From positions 496,001 through 560,000 of the forward strand of contig NZ_RFLW01000001.1 in the NCBI RefSeq assembly GCF_003719295.1: a DNA stretch of 64,000 bases, written 5' to 3'. The stretch comes from Haliea alexandrii. GTDB taxonomy: Bacteria; Pseudomonadota; Gammaproteobacteria; Pseudomonadales; Halieaceae. The translations under genes and the position numbers were made by a program. Positions 2,123 through 50,478 of the stretch are shown piece after piece; position 1 is the first letter of the stretch; each line of letters begins with the position of its first letter. A model generated the notes under the pieces. The model searched no databases, was not told the origin of the DNA, and saw only the letters and a program-made list of their open reading frames with translations.

Positions 2123-2322
2123 GGCCCCGCTTGCCGTCCCCCGCGGGCGACCGGGCCGGGCGGCCTGCGGCTGCCCTCACTGCGGAGCCCGCTCCGGGCC
2201 CCGCCCCGACGCGCTTCCTGCGCGGCGGGGCTTTCCGGCACATCCCTGTGCCTCCAGGCCCTGCGCCGGCGCCTTCGTTCGGCGCCCTCTACGGTCACCC
2301 GCGGGGGACGGCAAGCGGGGCC
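2123..2322. repeat. 200-bp GC-rich element with 31-bp terminal inverted repeats
   Basis: Bases 2123-2153 and 2292-2322 are reverse complements at 30 of 31 positions, enclosing 138 bp of very GC-rich sequence. Inside is a small hairpin, GGCACATCCCTGTGCC, whose loop core (CATCCCTG) matches the hairpin cores of the elements at 2449-2552 and 11237-11348. There is no coding capacity. It looks like a non-autonomous repeat (MITE-like or an extragenic palindromic element) or a very stable RNA structure in the ahcY 5' region. Confidence 0.7.
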
Positions 2323-2448: not shown

Positions 2449-2552
2449 GCGGGCTCGTCAGGGCTTTGCGGGACTGTCTGAAACATGGATGTTTCAGACA
2501 AGCCTACAGGGACGTATTCACGGCGTGTCCCGCAAAGCCCTGACGAGCCCGC
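2449..2552 (-). repeat. Inverted-repeat element A (same family as 11237-11348)
   Basis: Perfect 26-bp outer arms (2449-2474 and 2527-2552) flank a core containing a second palindrome at 2475-2500 with arms TGTCTGAAACAT and its complement. Read on the minus strand, the core contains CACGCCGTGAA, a TCCCTG hairpin, GGCTTG and an ACATCCATGT hairpin. These blocks occur in the same order in the element downstream of the fba gene cluster, although the outer arms differ completely. It lies just beyond the metK 3' end and has no T-run, so a simple intrinsic terminator role is not obvious. Confidence 0.85.
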
Positions 2553-2590
2553 AGTGCCGTCCTCACAGAGTCCCCACCAAAGTAGGCGCA

Positions 2591-3745
2591 TCACATCGCC
2601 CGGCGCAATACCTCCGCTTTATCCGTCCGCTCCCAGGTGAAATCCGCGTCCTCCCGGCCAAAATGCCCGTATGCTGCAGTTTTACGGTAAATGGGCCGCT
2701 TCAGATTGAGCATGTCGACAATGCCCTTCGGACGCAGGTCGAAATGCTCGCGCACCAGCTTCACGATGCTGGCATCGGAAAGCTTGCCGGTGCCGAACGT
2801 GTTGATCGAGATTGACGTAGGCTCTGCCACTCCAATCGCGTAGGACACCTGAATCTCGCAGCGGTCTGCGAGGCCGGCGGCAACAATGTTCTTGGCCACA
2901 TAGCGCCCGGCGTAGGCGGCGGAGCGGTCGACTTTCGAGGGGTCCTTGCCCGAAAACGCGCCGCCACCGTGGCGCGCCATACCGCCGTAAGTGTCGACAA
3001 TGATTTTGCGTCCGGTGAGGCCGCAGTCGCCCACGGGGCCGCCGATGATGAACACCCCGGTGGGGTTGATGTGGTAGCGCGTATCGGCGCTCAGCCACTC
3101 GGCGGGAAGCACTTCCTTGATAATGAGGTCCATCACCGCCTGGTGAATATCGGCCTGGCTGATGCTCTCATCGTGCTGGGTCGACAGTACCACGGCATCA
3201 ATGCCGACCGGCTGGCCATTCTCGTAGCGCAGGGTCACCTGGCTTTTGGCATCGGGGCGCAACCAAGGCAGCGTGCCGTGCTTGCGCAGCTCCGCCTGCC
3301 GCTCTACCAGACGGTGGGCATAGAAGATCGGCGCGGGCATGAGGGTGTCGGTTTCATTGGTGGCGTAGCCGAACATCAGGCCCTGGTCGCCGGCACCCTG
3401 TTCCTTGTCGTCACCGGCATCAACGCCCTGGGCGATATCCGGGCTCTGCTTGCCAATGGCGTTGAGGACCGCGCAGGACGCGCCATCGAAGCCGACTTTC
3501 GAGCTGTTGTAGCCGATGTCCAGCACGACGTTGCGCACCACGTCCTCGAGGTCGACATAAGTTTTGGTGGTCACCTCACCGGCAATCACCACCATGCCGG
3601 TCTTGACCAGGGTCTCCACCGCGACACGCGCATCGGGGTCGTCGACAAGGATCTTGTCGAGGATGGCGTCGGAAATCTGGTCGGCCATTTTGTCGGGGTG
3701 TCCTTCGGACACTGATTCGGAGGTGAAAGTCGCGTACTCGCTCAT
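2591..3745 (-). CDS. metK: S-adenosylmethionine synthetase
   Basis: Makes S-adenosylmethionine from ATP and methionine. It is 384 residues, the normal family length. [23 protein letters not shown] at the N-terminus carries the ATP-binding His; [19 protein letters not shown] near residue 260 holds the P-loop-like catalytic lysines; IGVAEPTSI follows. The ATG chosen starts exactly at this conserved N-terminus and has an AGGAA ribosome-binding site. Its start overlaps the stop of the upstream ArsR-methyltransferase gene as ATGA, so the two are translationally coupled and metK is probably transcribed from the palindrome-containing promoter near 4800. Together with ahcY and metF it covers most of the methyl cycle. 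Confidence 0.98.
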
Positions 3746-4758
3746 ACCGTGGTTCCTGTCGCTGTGTGTGGGTGGCCGAAGAGGCGCACCTGTATCTGAA
3801 ATCCGTTGCGCTGTGCCAGATAGACGCTGGCGATGTCGGTCAGTCCGGCATCGCTGGCCCAGGCTGCGAGGTCCTCGGGGGCAAAGCCCAGCCAAAGATC
3901 ACCGCAGTTTTCCCGCGCCCAGGCCTGGTCGTGGCGGCACAGGTCGGTAACCAATACCACGCCGCCGGGTGCCAGGCAGGCGGCAACGTCGTGCAGTATC
4001 TGCTGTGGCTGTGGCGTGTGGTGCAGCACCATATTGATGACCACGCAATCTGCCTGCAGGCTCGCCAGACGCTCGTGTCCGGTGTCGCCGTGCACGAATT
4101 CAATGTTCTCCAGTGCAGCCGTGGTGCTGCGTGCCCGTTCGAGCATGGCCGCGGTGTTGTCCAGCGCGACCACGTGCCGGAAACGGGGGCCCAGGGTCAG
4201 CAGGAAGCTGCCGTCACCCGGGCCCACTTCCAGTGCGGTGTCGAAGCGGGCGAGCGGGGCGTCCCGCAATACCTGGGCTACGGTGTCCGCGTATTGTTCG
4301 TAGCTGGCGATAAGGTCTTGCTGCTGGCGGAATTTGTGCGCGTTGTCGGTGAAGAAATGGCGTGAATTGGCCTCTCGCTGGCGTTGTACCTGCTGCAGGC
4401 GTTGTTCCAGCAGTTCGGGCAGGGGCACGGCATCCAGCGCATCGAAGATCTGTTGCTGCAAGGCGTCCAGACCCGGCTGTTGGCCGAGCTCGCTGCGCCG
4501 ATAGAAAATGGAGTTGCCTTCTCGTCGGGAGGCGACCAGCCCCATGCCGGCCAACACTTTGAGGTGGTGGCTCAGCGCGGGCTGACGGGTTGCAAACAGG
4601 GCGCACAACTCGGAAACGCCGAAGGAGTCGTTGCGCAGCACGCGCAGGATCTGCAGGCGCAACGGATCTGCGCTGGCCTTGCACAGGCTGGCCAGGGATT
4701 CGATGCGCGCTTCGGGACGGGTGTCCAGCGCGTCGGGTTGTCGGGTCGCGGTGAGCAT
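3742..4758 (-). CDS. ArsR-family regulator fused to a SAM-dependent methyltransferase domain
   Basis: A 338-residue two-domain protein. Residues about 20-95 form an ArsR winged helix ([11 protein letters not shown], then [21 protein letters not shown] as recognition region, and a REGNSIFYR wing). Residues about 130-330 are a class I methyltransferase with motif [10 protein letters not shown] (177-185), acidic D200 and a [11 protein letters not shown] motif IV. Proteins of this architecture sit between metK and tkt in Pseudomonas. ArsR-family regulators of the SAM/SAH cycle (SahR) are known in Proteobacteria, so I infer that it senses SAM or SAH and controls metK and itself; whether it methylates anything is unknown. 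The ATG at 4758 is preferred over a TTG 27 bases upstream. A perfect palindrome lies 29 bp upstream. Confidence 0.88.
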
Positions 4759-4786
4759 GGCGGCGGAGTGTAGCAGGCAATGCAAT

Positions 4787-4810
4787 CTATATCAAAAAAG
4801 TTTGATATAG
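4787..4810. promoter_or_regulatory. Palindromic operator between the ArsR-methyltransferase gene and tkt
   Basis: Arms CTATATCAAA (4787-4796) and TTTGATATAG (4801-4810) are exact reverse complements around a 4-bp spacer. The AT-rich palindrome stands out in GC-rich DNA and lies in the divergent intergenic region just upstream of an ArsR-type gene, the usual place for an autoregulatory operator. By inference it is bound by that regulator and may affect tkt as well. Confidence 0.75.
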
Positions 4811-4941
4811 GTGCGCGTTGCGTCGCGACGGGCAGAATAAGCGCGCAATAGTTGGGTGATTTGTTTGCCGTGGGCCGCCGCTTACGCGAAAATGACGCCC
4901 CCTTGTTTACCGGCCTCAGCGCCTAGCCACGGAGCACGCCA

Positions 4942-6945
4942 ATGCCATCCCGCTTTGAACTCGCCAACGCCATTCGTGCACTCAGTATGGATGCTGTCCA
5001 GCGCGCCAACAGTGGTCACCCCGGTGCACCGATGGGAATGGCGGACATCGCCGAGGTGCTGTGGAACGATTTCCTGCAGCACAATCCGGCGAACCCGCAG
5101 TGGCCCAACCGCGACCGTTTCGTATTATCCAACGGTCACGGCTCCATGCTCATTTACTCCCTGCTGCACCTGAGCGGCTACGAACTTCCGCTGGAGGAGC
5201 TGCAGAATTTCCGTCAGCTGCACAGCCGTACGCCGGGGCACCCTGAGTACGGCTACGCGCCCGGCGTGGAAACCACGACCGGTCCGCTGGGTCAGGGCAT
5301 CAGTAATGCCGTGGGCATGGCGCTGGCGGAGAAGGTGCTGGCGGCGCAGTTCAACCGGCCCGGGCATACCGTGGTGGATCACCATACCTATGTTTTCCTC
5401 GGCGATGGCTGCCTGATGGAGGGTATTTCTCACGAGGTCTGCTCCCTGGCGGGTACGCTGGGGCTGGGCAAGCTGATCGCTTTTTACGACGATAACGGCA
5501 TTTCGATCGATGGCGAGGTCGAGGGCTGGTTCACCGACGACACGCCCGCGCGGTTCCGTGCCTACGGCTGGCAGGTTATCCCCCGCGTTGACGGCCACGA
5601 CCCGGACGAGGTGCGCCAGGCGATTGCCACTGCCCGCGCCGAAGAAGGTATGCCCACACTGATTTGCTGCAAAACCATCATCGGCAAGGGCGCACCGAAC
5701 AAGCAGGGCACAGAAGCCTGTCACGGTGCTCCCCTGGGTGTGGACGAGATTGCGGCGGCGCGCGAGTCCCTGGGCTGGACGCATGGTCCCTTTGAGATCC
5801 CCGAAGCAATCTACGGTGGTTGGGATGCCCGCGCTGCGGGTGCCACGCGGGAGGAGGATTGGGAGGCCGCCATGGCAGCCTATGCAGAGGCGTATCCGGC
5901 CGAGGCGGCACAGCTGCGCCGGCGGCTCGCGGGGGATCTGCCCGAGGGGTTTGCCGCCCAGGCCCAGGCGTGGATTGACCAGTGCCAGGCTGAGGGGCAG
6001 AGCATTGCCTCGCGCAAGGCCTCGCAGAATTGCCTGGGTACTTTCGGTCCGCTGCTGCCCGAGCTGCTCGGTGGCTCGGCGGATCTCGCCGGTTCCAACC
6101 TCACGCTGTGGCAGGGTGCGCAGGGTGTTACCCAGACCGACGCCGCTGGCAACTACATCTACTATGGTGTGCGCGAGTTCGGCATGTCCGCCATCATGAA
6201 CGGTATCGCCCTGCACGGCGGCTTTGTGCCCTACGGCGCCACCTTCCTCATGTTTATGGAATACGCCCGCAATGCCGTGCGCATGGCGGCGTTGATGAAG
6301 CTGCGCACTATTTTCGTTTACACCCACGACTCCATTGGCCTGGGCGAGGACGGCCCGACTCACCAGCCGGTGGAACAGCTCACGGCACTGCGCGCCACAC
6401 CCAACCTGCACACCTGGCGGCCCTGCGATACGGTCGAGTCCGCCGTGTCCTGGAGCGCCGCGCTGCAGCGCGTCGCGGGCCCCACCGCGCTGATCTTCTC
6501 GCGCCAGAATCTCGCGCATCAGGCGCGCTCTGCAGAGCAGGTGGCCGCGATTGCGCGCGGTGGCTACACCCTGGTTGATTGTGACGGCCACCCCGAGTTG
6601 ATCCTCATCGGCACCGGTTCCGAGTTGCAGCTTGCCGTGGACGCCGCTGCCCGCCTGAGCGCTGCCGGGCGCCGCGTGCGCGTGGTGTCGCTGCCCTGTG
6701 CGGAGCTGTTCATGGAACAGGACGCGGCCTACCGCGAGGCGGTACTGCCCAGCGATGTGCTGGCACGGGTCGCCGTAGAGGCTGCCCACGCCGACTACTG
6801 GTACAAGTTTGTCGGCCTCGACGGCCGGGTTGTGGGCATGACCACCTTTGGTGAGTCGGCTCCCGCCGCCGATCTGATGGCCTATTTCGGCTTCACCGTG
6901 GATGCGGTGGTCGCTGCGGCCGAAGAGGTGCTGCTGGGAGACTGA
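4942..6945 (+). CDS. tkt: Transketolase
   Basis: Thiamine-diphosphate enzyme moving two-carbon units between sugar phosphates in the pentose phosphate pathway. It is 667 residues, full length. Visible motifs are [11 protein letters not shown] near residue 25, the TPP-binding [12 protein letters not shown] segment near residue 155, and the second-domain [20 protein letters not shown] stretch near residue 455. The ATG at 4942 has a GGAG site upstream. It begins a plus-strand run tkt-epd-pgk-fba with gaps of 4, 18 and 37 bp, a combination conserved in many gammaproteobacteria. That operon links erythrose-4-phosphate production to its oxidation by Epd. The promoter region may be shared with the divergent ArsR-type regulator. 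Confidence 0.98.
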
Positions 6946-6949
6946 AGCG

Positions 6950-7969
6950 GTGTTGCGTCTCGCCATCAATGGCTACGGCCGCATCGGGCGCAGTATTCTG
7001 CGTGCGCTCTATGAGGGGCGGCAGCGTGAGCACCTGCAGATTGTCGCCATCAATGAACTGGCCGATGCGCGCACGGTCCTCCACCTCACGCGCTACGACA
7101 GCACCCACGGCCGCTTCGCGCTGCCCCTGAGTGGTGGGGTGGGGGAGCTGCATATCGACGGCGACCCAATCGCCCTGCTCAGCCAGCCGGATGTGTCGCG
7201 CCTGCCCTGGGCAGAACAGGGCGTTGACCTGGTGCTCGAGTGCACCGGCGCCTTCAGTGACCGTGCTACCGCGGAACTGCATCTGCGTGGCGGCGCTTCG
7301 CGTGTGCTGTTCTCGCAGCCCGCACAAACCGATGTTGATGCGACGGTGGTGTTCGGTGTGAATCACGACACACTGCAGCCCGATCATCGTATTGTCTCGG
7401 CGGCCTCCTGCACCACCAATGGCATCGTGCCGGTGATCGACGCACTGCACCGTGCGCTGGGTGTGGCCTGTGGCACCATCACCACCATCCACTCGGCGAT
7501 GAACGACCAGCCGGTGCTGGATGCCTACCACCATACCGACCTGCGCAAGACACGCGCGGCATCCCAATCGATTATTCCCGTGGATACCGCGTTGGCGCGG
7601 GGTATTGAGCGCATTCTGCCGGAGCTTGCCGGGTGCTTCACGGCCCAGGCGTTGCGGGTGCCTACGCAGAATGTGTCGGCCATGGACCTCACGGTGCAGG
7701 TGACTCGTGATACCAGCGAGCAGGATGTGAACCGCATTCTGCGCGAGGCCGCAGCGAGCGCTTATCACGGGGTACTGGGTTTTACCACGGAGCCGCTGGC
7801 GTCCTGCGACTTCAATCACGACCCGCGCTCCAGTATCGTGGATGCCAGCCAGACCCGGGTCAGTGGCCGGCGCCTGGTGAAAGTGCTCACCTGGTTCGAT
7901 AATGAATGGGCCTACGCCAACCGCATGCTTGATGTGGCTGCCTGGTGGGGTGGCCGCAATGTTGACTGA
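6950..7969 (+). CDS. epd: D-erythrose-4-phosphate dehydrogenase
   Basis: NAD-dependent oxidation of erythrose 4-phosphate to 4-phosphoerythronate, the first step of pyridoxal phosphate synthesis. It is 339 residues, the same length as the E. coli enzyme. LRLAINGYGRIGRSILRAL is the Rossmann start; SAASCTTNGIVPV contains the catalytic Cys; TIHSAMNDQPVLDAYHHTDLR is characteristic of Epd rather than glycolytic GAPDH. The start is a GTG at 6950, four bases after the tkt stop, since upstream in-frame codons lie inside tkt and add nothing conserved. Adjacency to tkt, whose product it uses, supports Epd over GapA. Confidence 0.93.
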   Translation: MLRLAINGYGRIGRSILRALYEGRQREHLQIVAINELADARTVLHLTRYDSTHGRFALPLSGGVGELHIDGDPIALLSQPDVSRLPWAEQGVDLVLECTGAFSDRATAELHLRGGASRVLFSQPAQTDVDATVVFGVNHDTLQPDHRIVSAASCTTNGIVPVIDALHRALGVACGTITTIHSAMNDQPVLDAYHHTDLRKTRAASQSIIPVDTALARGIERILPELAGCFTAQALRVPTQNVSAMDLTVQVTRDTSEQDVNRILREAAASAYHGVLGFTTEPLASCDFNHDPRSSIVDASQTRVSGRRLVKVLTWFDNEWAYANRMLDVAAWWGGRNVD

Positions 7970-7987
7970 CTGCGCAGGAGTGCAGAG

Positions 7988-9148
7988 ATGAAGCTGATGT
8001 CCGACCTCGATCTGACCGGCAAGCGGGTGTTGATTCGCGAGGACCTGAACGTACCTCTGAAAGCGGGTCAGGTGAGCAGTGATGCGCGCATTCGGGCGGC
8101 ACTTCCCACCCTCCGCCAGGCACTGGACGCGGGCGCGAAAGTATTGATCATGTCGCACCTGGGTCGTCCTGAGGAGGGCGTGTTCGCCGAGGCGTTTTCG
8201 CTCGCCCCAGTCGCTGAGCGCTTGTCGGAACTGCTGGGTCGCCCGGTGTCGCTGCTGCGCGACTGGCAGCAGGGCGTGGCGCTGGACAACGGCGAGATCG
8301 CCCTGCTGGAGAACGTGCGCTTCAACCCGGGCGAAAAGAAAGACGACGAAACGCTGTCTCGCGCCTACGCCGCGCTGTGCGATGTGTTCGTCATGGATGC
8401 CTTTGGCACCGCTCACCGCGCCCAGGCTTCCACCCACGGGGTGGCGCGCTTTGCGCCGGTGGCCTGCGCCGGCCCGCTGCTCGCGGCGGAACTGGAAGCA
8501 CTGGACAAGGCGCTGGCCAACCCGGCCCGTCCACTGGTGGCGATTGTCGGCGGCTCCAAGGTGTCCACCAAGCTGACCGTACTCGAGACCCTGGCCGACA
8601 AGGTGGACCAGCTGGTGGTCGGCGGTGGCATTGCCAACACCTTTCTCGCCGCCAGCGGCAAGCCAGTGGGGAAGTCGCTGTGTGAGCACGACCTTGTTCC
8701 CGCGGCCCAGGCGCTGATGGCGAAAACACATATTCCCCTGCCTGAGGATGTGGTGACCGGCAAGGAGTTTGCGGAATCCGCCGCGGCGGAAACCAAGCCC
8801 GCCGGCGCCGTGGCCGACGACGACATGATTTTCGACATCGGCCCGCAGGCGGCAGCGGCGATTGGTGACATTCTGGCCCAGGCGGGTACCATTCTCTGGA
8901 ACGGCCCGGTGGGTGTATTCGAATTCGACCAGTTTGCGGGCGGCACCGAGGCGCTGGCCCACGCCATTGCTGCGAGCTCCGCATTTTCCCTCGCCGGTGG
9001 TGGTGACACGCTGGCGGCGATAGACAAGTTCGGCATTGCCGATCGGGTGTCCTACATTTCCACCGGCGGCGGCGCTTTCCTCGAGTATGTCGAGGGCAAA
9101 ACGCTGCCCGCCGTTGCCATGTTACAACAGCGCGGGGACGACGCCTGA
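7988..9148 (+). CDS. pgk: Phosphoglycerate kinase
   Basis: Interconverts 1,3-bisphosphoglycerate and 3-phosphoglycerate with ATP formation. It is 386 residues. [24 protein letters not shown] carries the substrate-binding Asp/Asn pair; SHLGRP follows near residue 58; [14 protein letters not shown] near residue 190 and the C-terminal [17 protein letters not shown] complete the nucleotide domain. An AGGAG site precedes the ATG. It sits 18 bp after epd and 37 bp before fba in the tkt-epd-pgk-fba operon. Confidence 0.98.
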
Positions 9149-9185
9149 GGGCGCACCTGCACCAGAACCCATCGAGGATAGACCT

Positions 9186-10241
9186 ATGGCACTTATCAGT
9201 ATGCGTCAGTTGCTGGATCACGCCGCAGAGTTTGGCTACGGCGTGCCGGCGTTCAATGTGAACAACCTGGAGCAGACCCGCGCCATCATGGAAGCGGCGG
9301 ATGCCACCAACTCGCCGGTCATCATGCAGGCCAGTGCGGGTGCGCGCAAATACGCCGGCGCACCGTTTCTGCGCCACCTGATCCAGGCCGCCATCGAAGA
9401 GTTCCCGCACATCCCCGTGGTCATGCACCAGGACCACGGTGTATCACCCGCCGTGTGCCAGCGCTCCATTCAGCTGGGCTTCAGTTCGGTGATGATGGAC
9501 GGCTCCCTGGGCACTGACGGCAAGACCCCCATGGATTACGACTACAACGTGGACGTAACACGCCGCGTGGTGGAGATGGCACATGCTTGCGGCGTGTCGG
9601 TGGAGGGCGAGCTCGGCTGCCTGGGCTCGCTGGAGACCGGCGAGGCGGGGGAGGAAGACGGTGTCGGTGCCGCGGGCAAGCTGAGCCATGAGCAGATGCT
9701 CACCGACCCCGAAGAAGCGGCGGCCTTCGTGGCCGCCACGGGGGTGGATGCCCTGGCCATTGCCTGTGGCACCAGCCACGGTGCCTACAAGTTCAGCCGT
9801 CCACCCACGGGCGATATTCTCGCCATCGACCGGATCAAGGAGATCAATGCCCGCATTCCCAATACCCACCTGGTGATGCACGGCTCCTCCTCAGTGCCGC
9901 AGGAGTGGCTGGCGATCATCAACGAGTTTGGCGGCAACATCCCGGAAACCTACGGCGTACCGGTAGAGCAGATACAGGAAGGTATCCGCCACGGCGTGCG
10001 CAAGGTGAATATCGATACCGACCTGCGCCTGGCCTCGACCGGTGCCGTGCGCCGTTTCCTGGCCGAGCACCCCGCCGAATTCGACCCGCGCAAGTTCCTC
10101 GCCGTGACCACCACCGCAATGAAAGACATCTGCGTGGCGCGATACGAAGCCTTCGGCACCTCCGGCCATGCCGACAAGATCAAGGTGCGCTCGCTGATTG
10201 CCATGCAGGAAGCCTACGACGCGGGCCAGCTGGGCTCGTAG
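9186..10241 (+). CDS. fba: Class II fructose-1,6-bisphosphate aldolase
   Basis: Zinc-dependent cleavage or condensation of fructose 1,6-bisphosphate with DHAP and GAP. It is 351 residues, beginning [37 protein letters not shown] near residue 85 supplies the catalytic Asp and a zinc His; [21 protein letters not shown] is the glutamate-rich segment typical of the Calvin-cycle subtype found also in non-autotrophs such as Pseudomonas; HGSSSVP and [13 protein letters not shown] bind phosphate. The ATG has a GAGGA site. It closes the glycolytic/pentose operon; a hydrolase gene follows immediately. Confidence 0.97.
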
Positions 10242-10264
10242 ACCCGGTCGCTTACGGCCGCAAG

Positions 10265-11200
10265 GTGGCTCCCAGCGCCGCAAGCCTGCAGGCACTGCGC
10301 AACGCGCTGCCCCGTTTCGGCGGGGCCTGCGACCACCCCGGCCTGGAAGCGTATCTGGCCTTCTACGGCCTCGACTTCAGCGCGCCGTCTCACGCTTACC
10401 GCCACCGCGTGGGCCGGGTCGCCTCCGGTCGCTACGAACTGGCCGTCCAGTGCTGGGAACAGCCCGGTGCGCGGCACACCCTGCTGCTGGTGCACGGCTT
10501 TCTGGACCATGTGGGCCTCTACCGCCACCTCATAGGCCACGCCCTGCAGCGCCAGTGCAATGTCATTGCCTTCGACCTGCCGGGGCATGGCCTCTCGACG
10601 GGCACACCGACAGCAATTGGCGACTTCAGCGAATACGCCGACGCGATCCAGGCGGTGCTCGAAGCGGTGGATGTGCCGCCGCTGCCCCTGCAGGCATTGG
10701 CCCAGAGCACCGGCGGCGCGGCCCTGGTCGCCTACGCGCGACAGTGCGCCGCCTGGCCTTTTACCGGCACCGTTCTCCTCGCGCCGTTGCTGCGCCCCGC
10801 GGGCTGGCTGCGTGTGCGAGCTGCCCATGCGCTGGTCCACCGGTTTGTGGATACCGTGCCCCGCGGCTTTGCACAGAATTCGTCCGATGCCGGCTTTCTC
10901 GCCTTCGTGCGCACCGACCCTCTGCAATCTCGCCGTATTCATGTGAGCTGGGTGGGCGCACTGCGCCGCTGGCTGGCGGATTTGCCCATCGCTGACCTGG
11001 GTGTGGGCCCGGCTCTGCTGGTGCAGGGCGATGCTGACGGTACGGTGGACTGGCGTTTCAACCTGCCGCGCTATGGCCAGCTGTTTCCGGGGCTGCGGAT
11101 TGAGTTGCTGCACGGTGCGGGGCACCAGTTGGCGAATGAGTCACGGGATTTGCGGGAGCGGTATTTGCGGCAGGTGGCTCGGTATTTGGGGTGGGTTTGA
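10265..11200 (+). CDS. Alpha/beta-fold hydrolase of unknown substrate
   Basis: Cytoplasmic by appearance (no signal peptide), about 311 residues. TLLLVHGFLDHVGLYRHL is the oxyanion-hole region and NVIAFDLPGHGLS the next strand; the nucleophile elbow reads ALAQSTGGAAL, so the usual first Gly of GxSxG is replaced (AQSTG). VQGDADGTVDW carries the likely acidic residue and GAGHQLANES the His. It starts just downstream of fba. No ATG exists near the hydrolase homology, so I propose GTG at 10265, which has no clear ribosome-binding site; translation coupled to fba is possible. The substrate cannot be told from sequence. Confidence 0.8.
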   Translation: MAPSAASLQALRNALPRFGGACDHPGLEAYLAFYGLDFSAPSHAYRHRVGRVASGRYELAVQCWEQPGARHTLLLVHGFLDHVGLYRHLIGHALQRQCNVIAFDLPGHGLSTGTPTAIGDFSEYADAIQAVLEAVDVPPLPLQALAQSTGGAALVAYARQCAAWPFTGTVLLAPLLRPAGWLRVRAAHALVHRFVDTVPRGFAQNSSDAGFLAFVRTDPLQSRRIHVSWVGALRRWLADLPIADLGVGPALLVQGDADGTVDWRFNLPRYGQLFPGLRIELLHGAGHQLANESRDLRERYLRQVARYLGWV

Positions 11201-11236
11201 GTTTTGTGGCCTGTAATTACGGGGTGCCCTGAAGTC

Positions 11237-11348
11237 GGCTCTGGGGCTGTTGGCGCTCTCAAGGGCACGCCGTGAACCCCTCCATGGGGGCTTGATGAAA
11301 ACATCCCTGTTTTCAACAGCCCTTGAGAGCGCCAACACCCCCAGAGCC
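11237..11348 (+). repeat. Inverted-repeat element B (same family as 2449-2552)
   Basis: Outer arms 11237-11266 and 11319-11348 are complementary at 29 of 30 positions. Between them lie CACGCCGTGAA, a CCCCTCCATGGGG hairpin, GGCTTGATG and a GAAAACATCCCTGTTTTC hairpin. These internal blocks follow the same order as in element A near 2.5 kb, while the outer arms are unrelated in sequence. It occupies the tail-to-tail gap between the alpha/beta hydrolase and marC genes. Part of its effect could be bidirectional termination, but there is no T-run. Confidence 0.85.
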
Positions 11349-11400: not shown

Positions 11401-11997
11401 TCACCCCCCCGCCAGGTTGAGAAACTTCTGCACCCCATCAAAAAACATCTGCACGGAGATGATCACCAGAATCATCCCCATCAAGCGCTCCATCGCCAGC
11501 AAGCCGCGGGCACCGAGCGCTTTCAGCAGCAGCGGCGCCATCATCAGCAATGCGGCACACACGCCCCAGGCGCCCACCACCGCGATCGTCCAGTCCACCA
11601 TCCGCTCCGGGTCCTTGTGCACCAGCAGCATGGTGATCGCCAGCGCCGAAGGCCCCGCCACCATGGGTATGGCCAGCGGCACGATGAAGGGCTCGCCATC
11701 CGGCGTGTCGCCCATGAGGCCGTAGGGGGAGGGGAAAATCATGCGCAGCGCAATCAGGAACAGGATGATCGCACCGGCGATGCTGATTGACTCCTGTCGC
11801 AGGTTCAATACGTCGAGCATGGCGGAGCCGGCGTACAGGAACAGCAGCAACACCACCAGAGCAATCACCAGTTCCCGGAAGATCACCCATTGCCGGCGCC
11901 GTGGTTCTACATCCTTCAGCACCGACAGGAAGATGGGCACGTTACCCAGCGGGTCCATGACGAAGGCCAGAGTGACAAAAGCAGAAATGGTATCCAT
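11401..11997 (-). CDS. MarC family integral membrane protein
   Basis: Inner-membrane protein of 198 residues with about six hydrophobic segments (roughly residues 4-24, 42-62, 72-90, 108-128, 138-160 and 172-192). The opening FVTLAFVMDPLGNVPIFLSVL and the IPMVAGPSALAITMLL segment are diagnostic of the MarC/YhgN family (UPF0056). The function is not established; an early link to multiple-antibiotic resistance was not upheld. The ATG at 11997 has a CGGAG site. It is transcribed alone, divergent from the transglutaminase-like lipoprotein gene, and its 3' end faces repeat element B. Confidence 0.9.
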   Translation of the reverse strand: MDTISAFVTLAFVMDPLGNVPIFLSVLKDVEPRRRQWVIFRELVIALVVLLLFLYAGSAMLDVLNLRQESISIAGAIILFLIALRMIFPSPYGLMGDTPDGEPFIVPLAIPMVAGPSALAITMLLVHKDPERMVDWTIAVVGAWGVCAALLMMAPLLLKALGARGLLAMERLMGMILVIISVQMFFDGVQKFLNLAGG

Positions 11998-30526: not shown

Positions 30527-30535
30527 GTGAAAGGT

Positions 30536-30714
30536 GGATTCCCGGCATGGCGTTGACAGAGTTGCCCTGAACCCGACGGTTCAAGGAGGAGGGCCCTGCA
30601 CTGTATCAGGCTTTCCGGTCAGTGCCGGACATGCACACCAACAGCAACGAGGAACCTCCGGGTATAGACTTATCGGCTCGAGGACTGTCTGCCTGGCGCC
30701 TATGCCAGGGATCC
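30536..30714 (-). ncRNA. ssrS: 6S RNA
   Basis: Regulatory RNA that mimics an open promoter and sequesters sigma70 RNA polymerase in stationary phase. The minus-strand sequence between zapA and ygfA carries the conserved 6S blocks: CGAGCCGATAAGTC, GGAGGTTCCTCG, GTGCATGTCCGGC, AAAGCCTGATAC and CCTTGAACCGTCGGGTTCA. The ends close on each other: 5' GGATCCCTGGCAT pairs with 3' ATGCCGGGAATCC, giving about 179 nt. A TATACT -10 box (30722-30727 on the opposite strand) lies 7 bases before the inferred 5' end. Position between zapA and ygfA is the conserved one. Exact ends are inferred from the closing stem. Confidence 0.93.
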
Positions 30715-49989: not shown

Positions 49990-50009
49990 ACCGGGCCACG
50001 TGGCCTGAA

Positions 50010-50037
50010 AAAAAGGAGCACTGAGGTGCTCCTTTTT
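50010..50037. terminator. Bidirectional Rho-independent terminator
   Basis: GGAGCAC-TGAG-GTGCTCC with an A-run on the left and a T-run on the right can terminate both the TonB operon (plus) and the cold-shock gene (minus), whose stop codons lie 20-30 bp on either side. Confidence 0.9.
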
Positions 50038-50061
50038 CTTGGGGTCGAGAAATGCTCAGGC

Positions 50062-50268
50062 TTAGACCGGTGTGACGTTCTCTGCCTGTGGGCCTTTCTG
50101 ACCGTTGGTGACGGTGAACTGCACTTTCTGGCCATCAGTGAGGGTTTTGAAGCCATCGCCCTTGATTGCGCTGAAGTGTACGAACACGTCGGGGCCGTTT
50201 TCGCGCTCGATAAAGCCGAATCCCTTGGTCTCGTTAAACCACTTAACGGTGCCGGTTTCTGTAGACAT
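50062..50268 (-). CDS. Cold-shock domain protein (CspA family)
   Basis: 68 residues: a single OB-fold cold-shock domain. [31 protein letters not shown] contains RNP1 (KGFGFI) and RNP2 (VFVHF). It binds single-stranded RNA/DNA as a chaperone; whether it is cold-induced cannot be told from the protein. Upstream there is roughly 130 bp before any other gene, containing an AGCCC/GGGCT hairpin that may be part of a long structured leader, which is common for csp genes. Confidence 0.96.
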
Positions 50269-50478
50269 ATGTGTTACCTGTATAACTTGGGAAAGCCCGG
50301 TTCGGGGCTCCAGGGGTTAGTCACTATTTATGTTCAACGTACCGAGGAACTTAAGGGAACTTCGACCACGCGCATAAATACCACTGATTTCTCAGCTTAA
50401 AGGAGTTTAGCACCGGGTTTTGCAGCGGGTATCTGCTGTGCGGCAAATATTTTGGGCAATATTACGCGTTTGCCAACG

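Follow-up and report, generated by a model that had tools for sequence, protein, structure and literature searches.

The two elements of the window and their neighbouring genes

Within a stretch of 64,000 nucleotides from Haliea alexandrii (contig NZ_RFLW01000001.1, positions 496,001 to 560,000 of the forward strand; the whole of this stretch is called the window), two intergenic elements were found at gene ends, the first in the gap between metK and ahcY and the second between convergent genes for an alpha/beta hydrolase and a MarC-family membrane protein. A preliminary description of this DNA had seen in each a conserved core enclosed by long complementary arms, and its coordinates proved exact, with cores of 52 nt and arms of 26 or 30 bp. 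Element 1 consists of arm 2449-2474, core 2475-2526 and arm 2527-2552 (26 + 52 + 26), and element 2 of arm 11237-11266, core 11267-11318 and arm 11319-11348 (30 + 52 + 30, with one mismatch). A covariance model, R1, made from 44 aligned family members with 38 base pairs (both window elements among them), gave exactly two matches in the window, these two elements, with E-values of 2.8e-22 and 1e-19. In the following list the GGA strand is the complement of the core as first read, P1 is the outer stem formed by the arms, and hp2 and hp1 are the hairpins of the core.

2449..2552, plus strand: putative GGA-strand RNA spanning all of element 1, antisense to the minus-strand genes metK and ahcY (covariance model, 106.3 bits; folding; strand test)
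2449..2474, plus strand: element 1, 5' arm of P1, 26 bp, partner 2527-2552
2475..2500, plus strand: hp2 of element 1, the first of the two hairpins in the RNA, with CATGGATG in its loop (2484-2491)
2505..2516, plus strand: hp1 of element 1, the second of the two, with CAGGGACG in its loop (2507-2514)
2527..2552, plus strand: element 1, 3' arm of P1
11237..11348, minus strand: putative GGA-strand RNA spanning all of element 2, flanked by convergent genes and on the same strand as the MarC-family gene (covariance model, 95.2 bits; folding)
11319..11348, minus strand: element 2, 5' arm of P1, 30 nt, one mismatch, partner 11237-11266
11293..11318, minus strand: hp2 of element 2, with CAGGGATG in its loop (11302-11309)
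11277..11288, minus strand: hp1 of element 2, with CATGGAGG in its loop (11279-11286)
11237..11266, minus strand: element 2, 3' arm of P1
640..2037, minus strand: ahcY, downstream of element 1 (Pfam AdoHcyase; start codon chosen within the longer open reading frame 640-2298)
2591..3745, minus strand: metK, with 38 nt between its stop codon and element 1 (S-AdoMet_synt N, M and C of Pfam)
10265..11200, plus strand: gene for an alpha/beta hydrolase, with 36 nt between its end and element 2 (Pfam Hydrolase_4; 5' end set for the search, listed open reading frame from 9905)
11401..11997, minus strand: convergent gene for a MarC-family membrane protein, with 52 nt between its end and element 2 (Pfam MarC)

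The folding strand and its structure

On the GGA strand, element 1 folded at -77.6 kcal/mol (z -12.6) and element 2 at -82.9 kcal/mol (z -10.9), with 0 of 200 shuffles as stable, and both elements beat shuffles by far whichever strand was folded. Mismatches in the arms reveal the folding strand, since a G.U pair is tolerated on the strand that works as a fold and shows as A.C on its complement. Elements were compared in three sets: those of the genus, those of G039 (a relative with a one-contig genome) and a named set of at least 120 loci, several of them from one genome and three from metagenome-assembled genomes (MAGs) labelled Klebsiella that are perhaps misbinned. Across 298 distinct elements (33 of these from R1 hits, a source favouring the loop motif), G.U mismatches fell 363 times on the GGA strand versus 25 times on the TCC strand; counted per element, the majority lay on the GGA strand in 187 and on the TCC strand in 8, with 103 ties. 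The excess was seen in the genus (101:11), G039 (41:2) and named (182:4) sets, which hold three elements twice between them, the recount over 298 elements being free of duplicates, and G.A and G.G arm mismatches were also mainly on the GGA side. Strand-biased mutation might contribute to the excess of G.U but would hardly contribute to the G.A and G.G transversions, and as related copies are not independent, no weight was given to the p-value of this test. The GGA strand is the strand that folds, so that the TCC strand, on which the preliminary description had read the elements as sense, was set aside; RNA is the likelier form of the folded strand than single-stranded DNA.

The order of parts on the GGA strand was the 5' arm of P1, hp2, a CRAG-like junction, hp1 and the 3' arm, and in element 1 the GCC at 2502-2504 pairs with the GGC at 2522-2524 in the family structure. 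The length of P1 had its mode at 31 bp in both the genus and G039 and was mostly 25 to 31 bp in the named set, with the stem usually ending in GAC/GTC beside the core. Hairpin hp2 has a variable stem of 8-10 bp and hp1 consists of 3 + 3 bp around a UUCAC-like bulge, each showing ANGGAN in a loop closed by C-G. In the alignment of 44 elements, 94.1% of cells were paired, double changes occurred in 32 of the 38 pairs, and the covariation score was 0.752 versus 0.187 for shuffled data; covariation was strong in P1, hp2 and the tip of hp1, and the short GCC/GGC helix had one double change. Together with orthologous arms that change together, these data bear out the structure-based selection suggested in the preliminary description.

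Across the alignment of 44 elements neither loop varied at the C, A, G, G, A and G of CANGGANG, and the starts of the two GGA motifs were 23 nt apart. As the search pattern favoured the hp1 motif, hp2 was located by its stem alone, and among the 298 elements it then carried GGA in 291 and the full CANGGANG in 264, several of the exceptions holding an insert in hp2. At position 6 of the hp2 stem, C.T or T.C (G.A on the GGA strand) was present in 15 of 63 genus stems, in certain hp2 types only. The element on the GGA strand is a three-way junction with two hairpins, each with CANGGANG, which is the consensus for CsrA/RsmA. Five loci from two genera (L081, L083, L084, L287 and L288) had a GC-rich, GCCTGGGCGGCCCCGCG-like insert of about 12-14 nt at one shared site in hp2, resembling a tiny element that had entered the hairpin.

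Copy number, placement and the separate histories of core and arms

A search of the H. alexandrii genome with R1 gave 11 matches, and in a Halieaceae-level sample of 100 genomes 59 also had matches, in 24 of 28 genera, a count of 41 for a genome of this sample being a minimum value; the elements are members of a repeat family, as had been proposed, and the core is far from confined to two places. The arms of the analysed copies were paired, although these copies were selected partly by arm score and the frequency of paired arms is a biased rate. In the same genome, the exact 11-base core word occurred 11 times versus once for its reversed control (by eye, 6 of the 11 are other sequence), and a degenerate core pattern with up to three mismatches had 29 matches versus 8 for the control. 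With one mismatch, the pattern found the core in 8 of 8 genus genomes at 2 to 24 copies each, and within three mismatches it had 130 matches in G039 versus 8 for the control. Further afield, R1 matched 46 of 274 sampled class genomes (E 1e-5) and 29 of 398 sampled phylum genomes (E 1e-6), all 29 in the window's class, and copy numbers in the sampled Gammaproteobacteria ran from one to about 120 a genome. Haliea salexigens DSM 19537, Marinobacter, Xanthomonas, Stenotrophomonas, Alteromonas, Halopseudomonas and Aquisalimonas were among the matches listed. A search of viral contigs returned two stretches, and a plasmid search with the ahcY region returned 21 records, ahcY or unannotated.

Arms of different copies had been described as unrelated. 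This held for nine copies in the H. alexandrii genome, whose arms were at chance (10 versus 10 of 20 bases alike, shuffled columns) and whose cores were less alike (41.5 of 52), and nearly so for G004 and G007, where arms were barely above chance (12 versus 11 of 20) and the core's best twin elsewhere in the genome agreed at a median of 49 and 51 of 52 positions. It failed in G039, where 41 of 49 elements agreed with another copy at 16 or more of 20 arm bases (0.21 under the null) and 19 of 49 bore inverted TGGCACTTACTT/AAGTAAGTGCCA-like ends; this is amplification of whole elements, arms included. With their inverted ends, these G039 elements resemble MITEs and may be a mobile version of the RNA element. 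By eye, loci L279-L298 of this genome had a CTAG-like word about 9 nt outside those ends, and outer flanks sometimes paired. The argument of the preliminary description that copying of one transposon could hardly explain the family is partly right at most, given the near-twin cores of G004 and G007 and the amplified elements of G039.

Arms and cores often changed separately in 88 orthologue comparisons, many of them non-independent, and most close orthologues differed little in either. At one site in G004 and G007 the arms differed at 0 of 44 positions and hp2 at 6 of 25 (L081- and L088-), at another the arms differed at 2 of 44 and hp2 was of another type and length (L075+ and L093-), and L083- and L086+ had 21 of 44 arm differences with one hp2 change. 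The metK site held an element in 7 of 8 genus genomes, with arms changing in step (by eye; that of G005 was degenerate with an insert). These histories are best accounted for if cores are copied or converted from one resident element to another while local selection keeps the arms paired; conversion is a putative route of the copying.

The metK-ahcY gap also contains, at window 2236-2257 on the minus strand, a second conserved hairpin, CTGGAGGCACANGGATGTGCCG, whose loop is also CANGGANG and which lies on the sense strand of metK and ahcY. It was exact in the metK loci of six of the eight genus genomes, had one change in G003 (by eye) and was not seen in G002, and its fold is ordinary (z -1.3); it may be another CsrA-like site ahead of ahcY.

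At the pepP site of 30 genomes taken to be Stenotrophomonas, 20 elements (or remnants) were of type a and 9 of type b, with one locus having none, and the weakly resolved pepP tree required at least seven type changes, which could also come from whole-gap recombination between strains. The one element-free gap among these, L418, had other repeats in place, and a scan of 20 more distant loci found an element in 4 and none in 16, one of the 16 being largely masked with N. Two decay forms were seen in the Stenotrophomonas gaps: in L419 deletion had reduced the core on its P1 stem to a short loop, and in L407 the hp1 loop contained an insertion of other palindromic sequence. In G553, a tandem array (L388:1288-2652) had 6.0 units of 227 bp, each with one element and one repetitive extragenic palindrome (REP) by eye, giving 12 GGA hairpins in one direction, a CsrB-like number. 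The REP in these units is presumably Pseudomonas-like.

Of the 220 distinct elements whose neighbours on both sides could be called, 109 lay in convergent, 93 in tandem and 18 in divergent gaps, versus 123, 183 and 99 of all 405 gaps longer than 120 nt in the same loci, element gaps included; the gene caller was crude, and 45 elements were dropped for overlap with a called gene or a missing neighbour. The elements had been described as lying directly downstream of genes, which agrees with this gene-end placement but not with any fixed orientation, as in tandem gaps the GGA strand was sense 44 times and antisense 49 times. An antisense-only placement had been hinted at by 62 of 84 elements with a TCC-strand gene upstream (crude caller) and fell with these tandem-gap counts. 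GGA strands faced outward in 65 of 80 close neighbour pairs, inward in 5 and in tandem in 10; close pairs among the listed places of G039 were outward in 8 cases and inward in 4. A U-tract after P1 was not found, with T making up 13% (genus), 16% (G039) and 13% (named) of the first ten bases on the GGA strand. Expression within read-through or 3' untranslated region (3'-UTR) transcripts would fit best.

A TwoAYGGAY relative and candidate CsrA ligand

The preliminary description knew of no published mechanism, and a published relative does exist. The TwoAYGGAY motif (RF01731, of clan CL00106) was tabled in 2010 as a probable RNA, probably not cis-regulatory, with no function given in the portion of the source available (PMC2864571), and CsrA binding has been proposed for it from motif matches, with mention of a tandem G.A in the stem (available portion of PMC4333381). 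Like the window family, it has two hairpins with AYGGAY-type loops, a CRAG-like linker and an outer stem, and occurs in several copies per genome and in close pairs (5 outward and 1 inward in the RF01731 loci fetched, the outward ones spaced 225 to 294 bp); a tandem G.A may be a further likeness in some hp2 stems. The window family differs in its mostly fixed core of 52-53 nt, its locus-specific P1 of about 31 bp and, in some genomes, far more copies. Rfam at its cut-offs found no such family in 14 genus loci and 18 named loci, and with permissive settings RF01731 was not among the matches listed for four named loci but was matched by the GGA strand of one sister element, at 28.9 bits (E 0.014). 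Two intermediates matched both models, RF01731 above its cut-off (L373:2371-2465, R1 75 and RF01731 55 bits; L372:2028-2124, 61 and 49.1 bits), which indicates continuity with accepted TwoAYGGAY members, and RF01731 itself was above its cut-off of 43 bits in 13 of 274 class genomes. As they fall below the gathering score, the window elements are a divergent relative or variant of TwoAYGGAY and not formal members. Rfam matches in the window, on the minus strand, included 6S RNA and the cspA thermoregulator (30535-30714 and 50007-50430).

Other known systems share some traits with the family. CsrB/RsmZ-type small RNAs also repeat GGA hairpins with the CsrA consensus (as described in part of PMC7652899), whereas the window family has two sites per element, is dispersed over the genome and had no promoter enrichment found; Rfam families of that type had no match at the gathering score in the window and 14 genus loci. 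RsmU of Xanthomonas campestris, which binds RsmA and is released from a 3' UTR by processing, is a precedent for CsrA decoys at gene ends, and its binding was partly kept after all GGA motifs were changed; by its description it is set apart, as a single locus, limited to Xanthomonas according to its authors and lacking an Rfam homologue (available sections of PMC7694677). REP and REPIN sequences are likewise dispersed intergenic palindromes with inverted pairs (PMC2817692, PMC3116915), unlike which the window family forms a three-way junction of 104-112 nt, in a genome lacking a Y1 transposase match. The available portions of the literature looked at (including PMC2864571, PMC4333381, PMC11701678, PMC9788540, PMC7694677 and PMC7652899) describe neither this repeat nor a CsrA role for such repeats.

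CsrA/RsmE prefers an ANGGAN hexaloop in a hairpin, with the SELEX-derived (systematic evolution of ligands by exponential enrichment) site RUACARGGAUGU and a bridging range of 10-63 nt (available part of PMC7652899), and the CANGGANG loops, 23 nt apart, fit all three, which supports a CsrA ligand. The H. alexandrii genome has three CsrA-family matches. Judged from motif and spacing, the elements probably bind CsrA. Each element would encode a folded GGA-strand RNA with a long P1, a three-way junction and two hairpins, most likely produced at gene ends as a segment of read-through or 3'-UTR transcripts; its two hairpins would bind one CsrA/RsmA dimer, and the bound CsrA would be titrated away or tethered to that transcript. 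Cores would be kept alike by copying or conversion between loci, and arms would evolve locally with pairing held by selection, giving a constant core in unrelated arms. On balance we favour CsrA binding within gene-end transcripts by this dispersed, highly multiplied and divergent RNA of the TwoAYGGAY type.

Several alternatives were weighed against that reading. If the elements were REP-like selfish DNA, the GGA strand would fold as single-stranded DNA and be moved by a transposase acting in trans, with the loops as transposase contacts; high copy number, intergenic sites, avoidance of divergent gaps, inverted pairs and, in G039, inverted ends and amplified arms suit this, and the tolerance of G.U and G.A fits single-stranded DNA equally. 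We nevertheless consider it unlikely, because Y1_Tnp (PF01797), the one transposase type searched, had no match in the many-copy H. alexandrii genome (G000), G007, G044, G024 and G051 and matched in 4 of 9 genomes searched, in G039 just as a 33-position fragment, because orientation bias along G039 was weak (25 plus and 15 minus in 0-2 Mb, 19 plus and 23 minus beyond 2.5 Mb, for 100 of 130 places), and because orthologous copies stay at the same sites across species. A role as transcription end or insulator, in which a hairpin of about 30 bp behind genes would stop or degrade read-through and antisense transcripts and the loops would bind a termination factor or RNase, draws on the excess of convergent over divergent gaps, the close pairs facing outward toward neighbour genes and the very stable stems. 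It is quite improbable given the missing U-tract, several copies lying beyond the gene's own apparent intrinsic terminator (L079, L082, L085-, L090 and L093, by eye) and CANGGANG in both loops, which it leaves unexplained.

The other option raised in the preliminary description, that the arms arose when insertion duplicated the flanking DNA in inverted orientation, accords with the chance-level likeness of arms in the H. alexandrii genome. It is very improbable, being unneeded and unsupported: orthologous arms diverge by paired changes while staying in place, the length of P1 has a sharp mode in two sets, arms are common to many G039 copies, and the one element-free metK-ahcY gap (G002) is without arm sequence (by eye). 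A clean empty site that would exclude it was not found among that gap, the 30 Stenotrophomonas pepP loci and the 20 more distant loci.

Other observations weigh against the CsrA reading itself. RF01731 had no match at its cut-off in the window, and some microRNA families had lower E-values than RF01731 for the sister element. Hairpin stems of 8-10 bp in hp2 exceed most of the SELEX CsrA hairpins (in the available part of PMC7652899). The presence of CsrA did not separate the class genomes, a match (PF02599) occurring in 42 of 46 with elements versus 193 of 228 others (p 0.35); the element-bearing genomes lacking a listed match were G107, G168 and G199 (75, 88 and 67% complete) and G295, the last being 98% complete, absent among the CsrA matches listed and with intact loops in its element. 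The G.U pattern would be equal for single-stranded DNA, and a clear change of core type inside near-unchanged arms was seen in just 2 of 88 orthologue comparisons. About half of the tandem-gap copies are antisense and would need antisense transcription, and promoter-like signals within 100 nt of P1 were not enriched relative to shuffles, the other flank or the other strand.

With CsrA binding still the favoured reading, the elements may, as their motifs suggest, serve as scattered decoys or handles for CsrA. A wider proposal is more tentative: a distributed CsrA sponge of tens to more than 100 dispersed, core-homogenised repeats, whose copy number and local transcription would set the level of free CsrA. 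Taken as one whole, the speculation would also make the element a mobile RNA and not a mobile gene, with read-through transcripts tagged by a CsrA dimer and cores converted into resident arms. A motif listed in 2010 with no function now has a folding strand, a large sequence family below the Rfam cut-off, a gene-end address and a testable partner, and its shared core within private paired arms is a clear case for how structured repeats spread and stay folded. If CsrA does bind, REP-like 'noise' repeats would belong to the economy of a global regulator.

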